Positions 14,063 to 18,546 of a DNA stretch of 64,000 nucleotides are shown here, piece by piece. Source of the DNA: Cellulomonas fimi (GTDB lineage: Bacteria; Actinomycetota; Actinomycetes; Actinomycetales; Cellulomonadaceae); the NCBI RefSeq assembly GCF_028583725.1, contig NZ_CP110680.1:2728001-2792000 (forward strand), read 5' to 3'. The position numbers were made by a program, and so were the translations under genes. A model generated the notes under the pieces. It saw only the letters and a list, made by a program, of their open reading frames with translations. It had not been told where the DNA came from and did not search any database. Position 1 is the first letter of the stretch; every line of letters starts with the position of its first letter.

Positions 14063-16948
14063 TCAGACGCGCGGCTTCTCGCGCATCTCCCACGTCTCGA
14101 TGACGTCCTCGACCTGCAGGTCGTTGAACGACCCGAGTCCGATACCGCACTCGAAGCCCTCGCGGACCTCGGTGGCGTCGTCCTTGAACCGCTTGAGCGA
14201 CTCGATCGTGAGGTTGTCCCCGACGACCTTGCCGCCGCGCAGCACGCGGGCCTTCGTGTTCCGGCGGATGAGGCCCGAGCGCACGATGGAACCGGCGATG
14301 TTGCCGAACTTCGAGGAGCGGAAGACCTCGCGGATCTCCGCGGAGCCCAGCTGGACCTCCTCGTACTCCGGCTTGAGCATGCCCTTGAGGGCCGCCTCGA
14401 CGTCGTCGATCGCCTGGTAGATGACCGAGTAGAAGCGCACGTCGACGCCCTCGCGGTCGGCCAGGTCCTCGACGCGCTCCGCGAACTTCACGTTGAAGCC
14501 GATGATGATCGCGTTGTCGACCGTCGCCAGGTTGACGTCGTTCTGCGTGATGGCACCCACACCGCGGTGGATGACGCGCAGGTCGACCTCCTCGCCCACG
14601 TCGATCTTGAGCAGCGCGTCCTCGAGCGCCTCGACGGCACCCGACACGTCGCCCTTGAGGACCAGGTTGAGGGTCTCGACCTTGCCCTGCGCGAGCGCCT
14701 GCGTGAAGTCCTCGAGGCTGATGCGCTTGCGGCGCTTGGCCAGGAGGGCGGCGCGCTCGGCGGCCTCACGCTTCTCGGCGATCTGACGTGCCGTGCGCTC
14801 CTCGGGAGCGACGAGCAGCGTGTCACCGGCGCTCGGCACCGACGCGAGGCCGAGGACCTGGACCGGACGGGCCGGACCCGCCTCGACGACGGTGTTGCCG
14901 TGCTCGTCGAACATCGCACGGACGCGGCCGTGGGCCGTGCCCGCGACGATCGCGTCGCCGACGCGCAGCGTGCCCGACTGGACCAGCACCGTCGCGACGG
15001 CACCGCGGCCCTTGTCGAGGTTCGCCTCGATGGCGACGCCACGCGCGTCCTTGTCGGGGTTGGCCCGCAGGTCGAGCGCCGCGTCGGCCGTCAGCAGGAC
15101 GGCCTCGAGCAGCTGGTCGATGCCCATGTTCTGCTTCGCGGAGACGTCGACGAACATGGTGTCGCCGCCGTACTCCTCGGCCACGAGGTTGTACTCGGTG
15201 AGCTGCTGGCGGATCTTGGCGGGGTTGGCCCCCTCCTTGTCCACCTTGTTCACCGCGACCACGATCGGCACGTTGGCGGCCTGCGCGTGGTTGAGCGCCT
15301 CGATCGTCTGGGGCATCACGCCGTCGTCGGCCGCGACCACGAGGATCGCGATGTCCGTGACCTGCGCACCACGGGCACGCATGGCGGTGAACGCCTCGTG
15401 ACCCGGGGTGTCGATGAACGTGATGGCCCGCTCGTTGCCCTCGTGCTCCTTGGTGACCTGGTAGGCACCGATGTGCTGGGTGATCCCACCAGCTTCGCCG
15501 GCCACCACGTCCGTGGACCGGATGGCGTCGAGGAGCTTGGTCTTGCCGTGGTCGACGTGACCCATGACGGTCACGACCGGCGGGCGCGCCTGCAGGTCGT
15601 CGTCGCCCTCGGCCTCGAGCTCGGCGTCGAGGTCGATGTCGAAGGCCCCGAGCAGCTCGCGGTCCTCCTCCTCGGCCGACACCATCTCGATGACGTAGCC
15701 CAGCTCCTGGGCCAGCGCGCCGAACGTGTCCTCGTCGAGCGACTGCGTCGCGGTCGCCATCTCACCGAGGTGGAACAGCACCGTGACGAGCGCCGCCGGG
15801 TTGGCGTCGATCTTGTCGGCGAAGTCGTTCAGGGACGAGCCGTGCCGCAGGCGGATGACGGTCGAGCCGTTCCCGCGGGGGACGCTGACGCCGCCGAGCG
15901 ACGGAGCCTGCATCGCCTCGAACTCCTGGCGCTTCGCCCGCTTCGACTTCCGCCCGCGGACGGGACGACCGCCGGCACGACCGAACGCACCCTGCGTCGA
16001 GCCGCGACCGGCACCACCGGGACGACCGCCGCCGCCACCGGGACGGCCGGCGAAGCCGCCGCCGCCAGCACCGGGCGCACCGCCACCGCCGCCGGGACGA
16101 CCGCCGAAGCCGCCACGACCGCCGCCGCCACCGCCGCCGGGACGACCGGCACCGGCCGGACGCTCACCGGGGCGACCGACGCCGCTCGAGGTGCGGCCCG
16201 GCATCATGCCGGGGTTGGGACGGGGACCGCCCGGACGCGGACCACCCGGACGGGGGCCGCCGGGACGGTCGCCGCCGCCGGCCGCGGCCGCGGGGGCCTC
16301 GGGACGGCGGTCGCCGGGACGCGGCATGCCCTGCGAGGGCGCGAAGGGGTTGTTGCCCGGGCGGGGACCGCCGGGACGGGGACCGCCGCCGCCGGCACCG
16401 GGGCGCTCGCCCTGGCGCGGCATGCCCTGCGAGGGCGCGAACGGGTTGTTGCCGGGACGCGCCGCGGGGCGCGGGGCCGGACGCCCGCCGGGGGTCGGCG
16501 CGGAGCCGCCGGGGCGGCCCTGACCGGGAGCGGCGGGACGCGACGGCGCCGGGGCGGGCGCGGCCGACGCGGCCGGAGCCGGGGCGGCGGGACGCGCGGC
16601 CGGGGCCGGACGTGCGGGTGCCGGGGCCTGCGCCGGCGCGGCGGGGGCCGCAGCGGCGGGCGCCGGGGCGCTCGGGGCGGGTGCTGCCGGCGCGGGAGCC
16701 GCGGCGGCGGGCGCGGGAGCGGCGGGAGCCGGAGCCGCGGGCGCGGCGGGGGCCGGGCGCGCGGCGGCCTTCGGTGCCGAGGCACCGCCACCTGCGGGGT
16801 AGGTGTCGCGCAGCTTGCGCACGACGGGCGGCTCGATGGTCGAGCTCGCCGAGCGGACGAACTCTCCGAGCTCGTTCAGCTTGGTCATGAGGGTCTTGCT
16901 GTCGACTCCGAGCTCCTTGGCGAGCTCGTAGACGCGGACCTTGGCCAC
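14063..16948 (-). CDS. infB: Translation initiation factor IF-2
   Basis: GTPase that brings initiator fMet-tRNA to the 30S subunit. The 961 residues begin with the IF2_N domain ([22 protein letters not shown]), then a roughly 270-residue Pro/Ala and Gly/Arg-rich linker. A second IF2_N-like segment precedes the GTPase (G1 GHVDHGKT, G3 DTPGHEAF, G4 NKVDKEGAN), EF-Tu-like domain II, IF2 domain III, and the C-terminal fMet-binding domain. The long low-complexity linker is usual in actinobacteria. The GTG start is preceded by AGGAGAGAT. A leader with chained mini-ORFs and a hairpin over this ribosome-binding site lies directly upstream. Confidence 0.97.
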
Positions 16949-16954
16949 ATCTCT

Positions 16955-16980
16955 CCTGTCCTGGCCCGCCCCCGGACAGG
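16955..16980 (-). promoter_or_regulatory. Hairpin covering the infB ribosome-binding site
   Basis: CCTGTCC (16974-16980 as read on the minus strand) can pair with GGACAGG (16955-16961), whose last bases are part of the infB Shine-Dalgarno stretch AGGAGAG. The hairpin would hide the ribosome-binding site unless something opened it, for example a ribosome finishing the mini-ORFs just upstream. Confidence 0.5.
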
Positions 16981-16992
16981 GTCGGACCGTCG

Positions 16993-17049
16993 TTAGTGCT
17001 GGGTACTCATCGCTGGGTACTCATCGGTGCGTGCTCATCGGGTAGCCAT
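16993..17049 (-). other. Four chained mini-ORFs in the infB leader
   Basis: Reading the minus strand from 17049: ATG GCT ACC CGA TGA (MATR), ATG AGC ACG CAC CGA TGA (MSTHR, from 17038), ATG AGT ACC CAG CGA TGA (MSTQR, from 17024), ATG AGT ACC CAG CAC TAA (MSTQH, 17010-16993). Each stop overlaps the next start as ATGA, so a terminating ribosome could restart in a shifted frame. The array is built from a 14-bp tandem repeat (units 16998-17011, 17012-17025 and, degenerate, 17026-17039). The last stop is 13 nt before the hairpin over the infB ribosome-binding site. Translation of these peptides is inferred. Confidence 0.5.
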
Positions 17050-17110
17050 CGGCTTCCAACCCGCTTCCTTCTCGACGATCGGCCACGTCACCAGGGGGAC
17101 CCGGTGACGC

Positions 17111-17392
17111 TCACTGCTCGTGCTGCTCGAGGTGCTCGTGGACCGCGCGCGTGCCGGGCGGACCCGGCAGCCGCAGGGCCCGCCCGAACGCCCTGTGGCG
17201 TTCGGCGAGCTCGAGACAGGCACGATCGGGGTGCAGCCACGCTCCCCTGCCCGGCATCCGGCGACCGACGTCCACGACCAGCTCCGGGACTCCGGGACCG
17301 GCGGCGGGGGCGACCACCCTCAGCAGGGCTGACCTCGGGCCGGTCGCTCGGCACCCCACGCACGTCCGCACCGGGCCCACGACTGCCACCAC
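17111..17392 (-). CDS. rnpM: YlxR/RnpM family RNA-binding protein
   Basis: A small protein (about 93 residues) of the YlxR (DUF448) family. Members bind RNA; in Bacillus the protein modulates RNase P and is called RnpM. The signature GPVRTCVGCRATGPRSALLRVV is at the N-terminus, followed by VVDVGRRMPGRGAWLHPDRACLELAERHRAFGRALR. Several in-frame GTG codons (17392, 17389, 17380, 17371) could start it and none has a clear ribosome-binding site, so the start is uncertain. It lies in the conserved order nusA-ylxR-infB. Confidence 0.85.
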   Translation of the reverse strand: MVAVVGPVRTCVGCRATGPRSALLRVVAPAAGPGVPELVVDVGRRMPGRGAWLHPDRACLELAERHRAFGRALRLPGPPGTRAVHEHLEQHEQ

Positions 17393-17472
17393 GGGTGCGG
17401 GGTCGGGGGTCCGCCTGCTCGGCGAGGAGAGCCGGGCATCCGGCCCAGCCGTCGACAGTCTACCCCTCCGCG

Positions 17473-18546
17473 TCACCGGTGCTGACCGGCGCCGCGCCGC
17501 GGGGCCTCGCCGGCGTCGTGCCGGGCAGCGCCGGCGGCGGGCCCGCCGTCGGCCTCGGGGACCTCGGCGTCGGACCGGATGTCGATGCGCCAGCCGGTCA
17601 GCTTCGCGGCCAGGCGGGCGTTCTGGCCCTCCTTGCCGATCGCGAGCGACAGCTGGTAGTCGGGCACGACGACGCGCGCCGCACGGGCCGCCTCGTCGAC
17701 GACCGTGACGGACACCACGCGGGCCGGCGACAGCGCGTGCGCGATCATCTCGGCCGGGTCGTCGGAGTGGTCGACGATGTCGATCTTCTCGCCGTGCAGC
17801 TCGGCCATGACGGCGCGCACGCGGCCGCCCATCGGGCCGATGCACGCACCCTTGGCGTTCACCCCGGGCACGGTCGCGCGGACCGCCATCTTCGTGCGGT
17901 GCCCGGCCTCGCGGGCGATCGCGGTGATCTCGACCGTGCCGTCGGCGACCTCGGGCACCTCGAGCGCGAACAGCCGCCGCACGAGGTTCGGGTGCGTCCG
18001 TGACAGCGTCACCTGCGGGCCGCGCGGGCCGCGCGCGACCTCGATGACGTAGGCGCGCAGCCGGTCGCCGTGCACGTACTCCTCGCCCGGCACCTGCTCG
18101 TGCTGCGGCAGCACCGCCTCGGTCCCGCCCACGTCGACGAGCACCGTGCGCGGGTCTCGGCCCTGCTGGATGACGCCGCCGAGGACCTCGCCCTCCTTGC
18201 CGCGGAACGTGCCGAGCACCTGGTCGTCCTCGGCGTCACGCAGCCGCTGGACGATGACCTGGCGCGCGGTCGCGGTCGCGATGCGACCGAACCCGTCGGG
18301 GGTGTCGTCGAACTCCGGGGTCTCCACCTCGACCGGACGGCCGTCCTCGCCGAGCGGCGCGGGCTCGCGGGCCCACACGGTCACGTGCCCGCTGCGGCGG
18401 TCGACCTCCACGCGTGCCCGCGGGTGCGACCCCGGCGTGCGGTGGTAGGCGGACAGCAGCGCCTGCTCGATCGCCGAGACGAGCACGTCCAGGCTGATCT
18501 CCCGCTCGCGCTCCAGCAGTCGCAGCGCCTGCATGTCGATGTCCAT
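17473..18546 (-). CDS. nusA: Transcription termination/antitermination factor NusA
   Basis: RNA-polymerase-associated factor controlling pausing, termination and rRNA antitermination. The 357 residues comprise the NusA N-terminal domain ([18 protein letters not shown]), an S1 domain (around [17 protein letters not shown]), and two KH domains ([22 protein letters not shown] and [20 protein letters not shown]). It lacks the C-terminal acidic repeats of enterobacterial NusA, as is usual in actinobacteria. The ATG at 18546 is one base after the rimP stop and follows GGGGAGGG, so the genes are tightly coupled. Confidence 0.96.

Follow-up and report, generated by a model that had tools for sequence, protein, structure and literature searches.

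We analysed a window of 64,000 nucleotides from Cellulomonas fimi, in which infB, the gene for IF2, lies on the minus strand at 14063..16948 (NCBIfam TIGR00487, 747.8 bits, cut-off 424.4). The gene starts with GTG (16948-16946), preceded by the Shine-Dalgarno sequence AGGAGAG (16951..16957, minus strand). Upstream is nusA (NCBIfam NusA match 350.2, cut-off 253.4), and between nusA and infB there is a gene that matches RnpM with 49 bits, below the cut-off of 80. The RnpM family is also called YlxR, and we refer to this gene as ylxR-like. Its stop codon (17113-17111) is separated from the infB start by a gap of 162 nt, 57 nt of which are spanned by a chain of very short open reading frames that begins 61 nt past the ylxR-like stop.

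Four mini-ORFs with ATGA junctions had been claimed upstream of infB in a preliminary description of this sequence, and they are present on the minus strand. Mini-ORF 1 (17035..17049; ATG GCT ACC CGA TGA) has four codons and encodes MATR. The following three have five codons each: MSTHR (mini-ORF 2, 17021..17038; ATG AGC ACG CAC CGA TGA), MSTQR (mini-ORF 3, 17007..17024; ATG AGT ACC CAG CGA TGA) and MSTQH (mini-ORF 4, 16993..17010; ATG AGT ACC CAG CAC TAA), the last being closed by TAA. Each of the first three TGA stops overlaps the next ATG as ATGA, and the start-to-start steps are 11, 14 and 14 nt. Ahead of mini-ORF 1, a purine-rich box, GGAAGCGGGTTGGAAGC (17052..17068, minus strand), is the presumed ribosome-binding site of this ORF. 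Part of the chain coincides with a 14-nt tandem repeat of 3.1 copies (16998-17040).

The pattern ATGA-N7-13-ATGA-N7-13-ATGA (steps of 11-17 nt) has eight matches in the genome of this organism. Out-of-frame steps (14/14) are found only at infB; in the other seven matches the steps are 12 or 15 and stay in frame. Across 30 genomes of the class the same pattern also hits many in-frame or chance sites away from infB, and ATGA spacing by itself is therefore not specific. Among the first ten genomes listed, the infB copy is matched in nine, eight of them by position and G029 by resemblance; the exception is G025.

Several smaller features flank the chain. Right after the ylxR-like stop codon, at 17086-17110 on the minus strand, there is a strong hairpin (GCGTCACCGG-loop-CTGGTGACG) that has no T run behind it; by eye, other Cellulomonas and Streptomyces leaders have hairpins of different sequence near the same place past the ylxR-like gene. 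At the other end, the infB start reads ATGTG in the window (16946-16950), with an out-of-frame ATG overlapping the GTG, an arrangement that is not conserved because the bases before GTG vary elsewhere (AT in 16 of 106 genera). The Rfam 15 covariance models have no match at E<=5 in 16800-17500.

Conservation of the chain and its frame logic

The preliminary description had proposed a comparison with the infB leaders of relatives, and across the class the chain is kept while the sequence around it drifts. Leaders were taken from the genus, the order, the class and the phylum; those fetched represent part of the genera with an infB match. The class, which holds Cellulomonas, Streptomyces and Arthrobacter, is one we take to be Actinomycetes. 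With one 200-nt leader per genus, 96 of 106 genera reach a chain of three ORFs or more, nine reach two and a single genus has one (L249 and L259 could not be parsed, leaving 106 of 107 genera). Chains of at least three ORFs occur in 338 of 10,600 dinucleotide shuffles of the same leaders (3.2%), on none of the 106 opposite strands, and in none of 19 leaders that represent the phylum's other classes (19 of 20 loci, as L286 could not be parsed).

When chains are traced back more strictly from the last ORF, 92 of 105 genera still have three or more (the set is 105 here and in the helix counts below because no last ORF lay in range in L242). The element is widespread, being found in 44 of the 46 families of Actinomycetes sampled, and it stands before an essential gene; it is easily missed since each ORF has just a few codons. 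By inspection, the 13 genera below three in the back-trace include L202, L203, L213, L252, L257, L263 and L270, where ORFs are joined by TGATG or TAATG. At L250 and L265 the back-trace picked the wrong last ORF and both are three-ORF chains, whereas L221, L240 and L241 apparently have two-ORF chains and L242, outside the 105, has no chain. Compared with the window, the chains of L067 (Actinotalea) and L068 (a Cellulomonas metagenome-assembled genome) have three ORFs, one unit fewer. Locus L083, on a contig labelled as a Spirochaetaceae metagenome-assembled genome, carries an actinobacterial-looking infB with a chain leader and is probably mis-binned.

The steps between successive ATGA junctions are in the phase required for a frame change (2 modulo 3) in 164 of 171 cases. 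In-phase steps are 11 nt (61 cases), 14 nt (92), 17 nt (7), 20 nt (2), 8 nt (1) or 29 nt (1), and the seven off-phase steps are 25 nt (four times), 22 nt (twice) and 3 nt (once). The leaders of families f19 and f91, when read through, show that their 25-nt steps span a GTGA junction, which the step count leaves unscored. Back-traced junctions in the 105 genera are ATGA in 202 cases, GTGA in 9 and TGATG in 2, and these changes keep the overlap: GTGA is found in five families and TGATG in two. As in ORFs coupled by termination and re-initiation, the start overlaps the preceding stop at ATGA, GTGA and TGATG alike.

These data bear on the main alternative offered in the preliminary description, a chance product of a 14-bp minisatellite, which may be widened to a protein-bound RNA or DNA motif (GATGA repeats) whose frames are not translated. 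The tandem repeat in the Cellulomonas fimi genome is what such a reading would predict, and the words GATGAGCAC/GATGAGTAC as such are retained in many leaders. However, frame-true spacing, the GTGA and TGATG substitutions, and the use of all three stop codons at the chain end are not accounted for by a repeat, and the chain is kept where the repeat is gone: L049, L052, L211, L212 and L253-L255 have chains without the MST repeat. A chain absent from close relatives, with only the copy number of the repeat varying, is not what we found. We therefore reject the by-product, consider the wider motif reading highly improbable, and regard the chain as a selected feature, a view supported by its pattern of conservation.

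The lengths of the ORFs are also constrained. Most third-last ORFs have 4 codons (77 of 92 genera), most second-last ones 5 (87 of 101) and most last ones 5-6 (82 of 105). Genera are kin, and these counts are not independent; to give an approximate idea, 8, 11 and 20 combinations of family and length depart from the usual values in the last three ORFs. A stop within 8 codons ends the last ORF in 98 of 105 genera (93%), where composition would predict 18%. Over the 105 genera this stop is TAA (50), TAG (32) or TGA (23), and in 103 of them it lies 33-66 nt ahead of infB. At the head of the chain, the 19 nt before the first start pair with the 16S 3' end at a mean of -8.6 kcal/mol in the 92 genera with at least three linked ORFs, compared with means of -4.3 kcal/mol for random upstream stretches and -9.5 kcal/mol for infB's own site. 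In family f92 the head is a GTG preceded by AAGGAG.

It has to be considered whether the lengths themselves are what matters. IF1 and IF2 reportedly remove short peptidyl-tRNAs (Karimi et al. 1998), and a leader of 4-6 codon ORFs might lose ribosomes by such ejection in proportion to IF2. ORF lengths mostly kept at 4, 5 and 5-6 codons fall in the range of short peptidyl-tRNAs and would suit such a sensor, although applying drop-off to the infB leader would be a transfer from E. coli. The start-stop overlaps, the best-kept feature of the chain, are not required by drop-off itself, and the excerpts of a review on ribosome rescue name RRF, EF-G and RF3 as promoters of drop-off and have no hit for 'initiation factor' (PMC8012679). 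We regard this explanation as improbable.

In contrast to the lengths, the encoded peptides vary by family (MSTR, MKLK, MVAR), and no conserved stalling peptide or set of regulatory codons is found. Streptomyces has MSTR, MSTR and then MSTPMK or similar, and the AT-rich L211 (family f95) has MKLK, MSSFTS and MRSNN. L049 and L052 have a GTGA junction. Three loci of family f7 (L253, L254 and L255) combine ATGA and GTGA junctions; there are five ORFs in L253, and both L253 and L255 include an ORF of two codons (GTG AAA TGA).

In Arthrobacter, the fourth ORF is lengthened to 23 codons. No clear purifying selection on its peptide is seen among 13 sequences (pN/pS 0.72), with 13 variable sites at codon position 2, 8 at position 3 and 4 at position 1. 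A possible hairpin, GCGCAAC-GTTGCGC, surrounds the ATGA junction in L184, L247 and others, and GGGCC/GGCCC in this ORF becomes GGACC/GGTCC in L116 and L125.

The GTG start of infB is invariant in the class: it is found in 106 of 106 genera of Actinomycetes and at 269 of 269 class loci (245 distinct leaders), with a start finder that took ATG, GTG and TTG on equal terms. In the 19 leaders of other classes the starts are GTG (9), ATG (7) and TTG (3), several of which may be internal ATGs. Such a conserved non-AUG start codon is a feature expected under autogenous control of an initiation factor.

Two interleaved hairpins between the last stop and infB

Four short arms follow the last stop on the minus strand of the window. 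Arm A (GGTCCG, 16983..16988) occupies the fifth to tenth nt past the stop and pairs with arm A' (CGGGCC, 16963..16968); arm B (CCTGTCC, 16974..16980) pairs with arm B' (GGACAGG, 16955..16961), which overlaps the infB Shine-Dalgarno. B:B' had been described before and is present in the sequence, with its 3' arm covering the AGG of AGGAGAG; its distance from the last stop, given as 13 nt, is in fact 12 nt. The competing hairpin A:A', absent from that description, interleaves with B:B'. Since the arms run in the order A, B, A', B', the two helices are mutually exclusive, a tight pseudoknot being less likely.

In an unselected set of 105 genera, the best helix within set bounds beats 95% of shuffles in 58 and 99% in 27. 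In 57 of these 58 the 5' arm begins 0-5 nt past the stop, and in 48 there are 12-15 nt between the end of the 3' arm and the infB start. A:A' is found in all the taxonomic orders sampled. The B helix belongs mainly to the order of the window (33 genera there, 5 elsewhere).

The hairpins also covary. Because the sets were trimmed, the following counts lean to clear cases. After length limits and the removal of three named loci, 42 of 52 genera represented the window's order and 44 of 53 the other orders. The former were reduced to 39 by omitting two Bifidobacteria-like genera and one duplicate, and the latter to 31 by omitting near-duplicates and shifted or interrupted stems, mycobacteria-like ones among them. 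For A:A' and B:B' together in the 39 genera of the order, the covariation score is 0.217 against 0.152, and for A:A' alone in the 31 genera of other orders it is 0.286 against 0.217; neither score is reached in any of 500 shuffles. In the alignment of the window's order, six of seven A:A' pairs are changed on both sides, as are four pairs of B:B', but the inner helix of B:B' is paired in only 64.7% of cells, a value that arises partly from aligner shift. Further pair types in the alignment of other orders are no more numerous than in shuffles (384 of 500 reach the number).

Folding energy of the leader is ordinary (z = -0.34 for 191 nt and z = -0.32 for the last 55 nt; the B:B' stretch alone has a weak z-score of -1.84), so the structural case rests on covariation and geometry. 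A long-range pairing of the stretch before the chain with arm A, suggested by the whole-leader fold and by eye in Cellulomonas and Arthrobacter, shows no enrichment and was discarded: it exceeds shuffles at p<0.05 in none of 52 genera of the order and in 3 of 53 elsewhere. Unlike most of the class, L211 and L212 (family f95, small genomes) have an arm A that can pair with the pre-chain stretch GGATGCGA (p 0.03 and 0.02).

The covarying hairpins weigh against a protective role of the leader, in which translation of the chain would keep ribosomes close behind RNA polymerase and guard the operon from premature termination, with control of IF2 not its purpose. The position of the chain, between nusA with the ylxR/RnpM-like gene and infB, and its cover of 57 of 162 nt fit such a role. 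However, a single longer ORF would serve it better than several frame-switching ones of fixed length, most of the gap is uncovered, and neither the covarying hairpins nor the invariant GUG would be explained. We find this role quite improbable, slightly more so than peptidyl-tRNA drop-off.

Predicted effect of a ribosome on the last stop

A ribosome with a stop codon in its A site is expected to hide about 10 nt beyond the stop (the usual +15/+16 toeprint). In folding calculations on the window, the free stretch past the stop has A:A' at 0.81 and B:B' at 0.16; with 10 nt hidden, these become 0 and 1.0. The 33 genera with a B helix in the window's order behave likewise, A:A' changing from 0.57 to 0.04 and B:B' from 0.44 to 0.82 when 10 nt are hidden, means that are slightly blurred by L235 and L256, where the automatic choice of A coincides with B. 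In the same genera, mean B:B' is 0.82-0.89 with 6-10 nt hidden and 0.11 with 16 nt hidden; A ends 7-11 nt past the stop in 25 of them, and B begins at nt 12 or 13 in 21. Since A would be covered and B left free by a ribosome on the last stop, the computed sign of the ribosome's effect is repression of infB, which we offer as a prediction of the folding model.

The direction of this step differs from that in the preliminary description, where a ribosome finishing the last mini-ORF was said to cover or melt B:B'. Arm B begins at the 13th nt past the stop, at or beyond the leading edge of the ribosome, and folding instead favours B:B' once arm A is hidden. The earlier interpretation is right in kind, with the direction of its last step perhaps wrong; A:A' and the invariant GUG were missed.

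A coarse measure does not bear out a general lowering of Shine-Dalgarno accessibility by a ribosome on the last stop. The measure is the accessibility of GGAG, a word only partly inside B', computed over all genera with a GGAG and with some infB sequence included. When the first 10 nt past the stop are hidden, there is no net change: the window's order (52 genera) moves from 0.46 to 0.52, with 9 genera rising and 4 falling by at least 0.3, and 52 other genera move from 0.68 to 0.66, with 4 rising and 11 falling by as much. GGAG opens with 10 nt hidden in L049, L235, L253, L256 and L263.

The 9 of 52 genera in the window's order whose GGAG opens by at least 0.3 are also what a relay of opposite sign would predict. 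In such a relay, ribosomes finishing the last mini-ORF would remain on the mRNA, pass through or melt the hairpin and restart at infB, so that the ladder would supply infB with ribosomes and IF2 would rise with initiation capacity. Termination-reinitiation is documented for overlapping genes in the excerpts of PMC6728339. In addition, A:A' sets the last stop beside the Shine-Dalgarno through the placement of its two arms relative to stop and start, and a relay would fit all orders because it needs no B:B'. It has to contend with a last stop that is far from infB for direct restart, lying 33 nt or more ahead in nearly all genera, with the strong Shine-Dalgarno that infB owns, and with the interleaving of B:B' and A:A', which it leaves unexplained. 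Positive feedback on an essential factor would also be unusual. On balance we consider such a relay doubtful, although it deserves more weight than either drop-off or a guard against premature termination.

A proposed feedback on IF2 through repeated re-initiation

Taken together, the reading that we prefer, at a probability of roughly 0.45, is that the leader is a cis-acting re-initiation ladder that feeds back on IF2. A ribosome would load at the purine-rich box, make a peptide of four residues and stop on the TGA that overlaps the next AUG. It would then restart one nucleotide back in a new frame, and do so two or three times until it reaches the last stop. Each restart would require IF2 and initiator tRNA, and the share of ribosomes reaching the last stop would drop steeply if re-initiation were weak. 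On the last stop, the ribosome would hide arm A of the hairpin that starts right behind it; in the window's order, the release of A' would let B:B' form and mask part of the infB Shine-Dalgarno. Ample IF2 would lead to less infB translation, and with scarce IF2 A:A' would stay and the site remain open. The invariant GUG start may heighten this sensitivity.

A link to the efficiency of initiation or re-initiation is the most natural reading of the conserved chain. Comparison and calculation establish the chain with its frame logic and last stop, the binding site at its head, the A:A' hairpin, the exclusion of A and B in one order and the GUG start, while translation of the chain, the direction of control and IF2 as the signal are inferred. 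In E. coli, re-initiation requires IF2, possibly more than de novo initiation does, and was lowered by overproduction of IF3, according to the excerpts of PMC2268962. By analogy, this dependence would be multiplied by successive restarts. Since B:B' is mostly confined to one order, the output step proposed here would not apply to all orders, and a point against the ladder is that the last stop may be occupied only briefly because termination is quick.

The same idea can be put in a wider form, which we hold more tentatively. The leader would then be a bacterial counterpart of GCN4, in which overlapping minimal ORFs raise an IF2-dependent re-initiation efficiency to the third or fourth power and exert class-wide autogenous control of IF2 via a hairpin at the leading edge of the ribosome. 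GCN4 and ATF4 likewise have several very short upstream ORFs and read out a re-initiation efficiency that depends on the carrier of initiator tRNA. They differ in using a scanning 40S subunit, in having spaced rather than overlapping ORFs and in targeting a stress regulator rather than the factor, and there is no common origin.

Other known systems share parts of this arrangement. With erm-type attenuators it would share the choice between exclusive hairpins, one of them masking the Shine-Dalgarno, by the position of a ribosome on a leader ORF; this combination of leader ORF and hairpins is present in the window, and 33 genera of the same order have it. Unlike those attenuators, the infB leader lacks a conserved stalling peptide or run of amino-acid codons, the ribosome is proposed to act from the last stop, and few genera outside the window's order have the second hairpin. 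Autogenous control of infC (IF3) through its AUU start offers another parallel, as both have an invariant non-AUG start in a region perhaps built to sense the factor, but infB has GUG and an upstream ladder, and the response to IF2 is a proposal. Coupled overlapping genes have the same ATGA and TGATG start-stop junctions, with two real genes in the cases described in the excerpts of PMC6728339, whereas the infB leader has 3-4 ORFs of 4-6 codons with no evident protein product. The ladder would be a form of upstream-ORF control set apart from these known families.

Outside E. coli, to our knowledge, it is not settled how the level of IF2 is controlled. In that species infB is likewise in a nusA-infB operon, and the abstract of PMC6511841 describes promoters, mRNA stability and cold-shock bias, with leader ORFs unmentioned in it. 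Mini-ORFs before infB are not described among the matches listed in the open-licence literature. By word counts, infB is not mentioned in the excerpts of two mycobacterial ribosome-profiling papers (PMC4633059, PMC9094748), and a word search finds it absent from the main text of the S. lividans re-annotation paper (PMC8079986).

If the proposal is true, the leader would report naturally on re-initiation capacity and offer a clear example of an initiation factor that gauges its own activity. The ladder could be tested in ordinary Streptomyces or Cellulomonas. In Sinomonas (L088 and L106), mini-ORFs 2 and 3 are fused in frame (a step of 15 nt) and closed by TAG, a possible natural variant that bears on the number of restarts needed.
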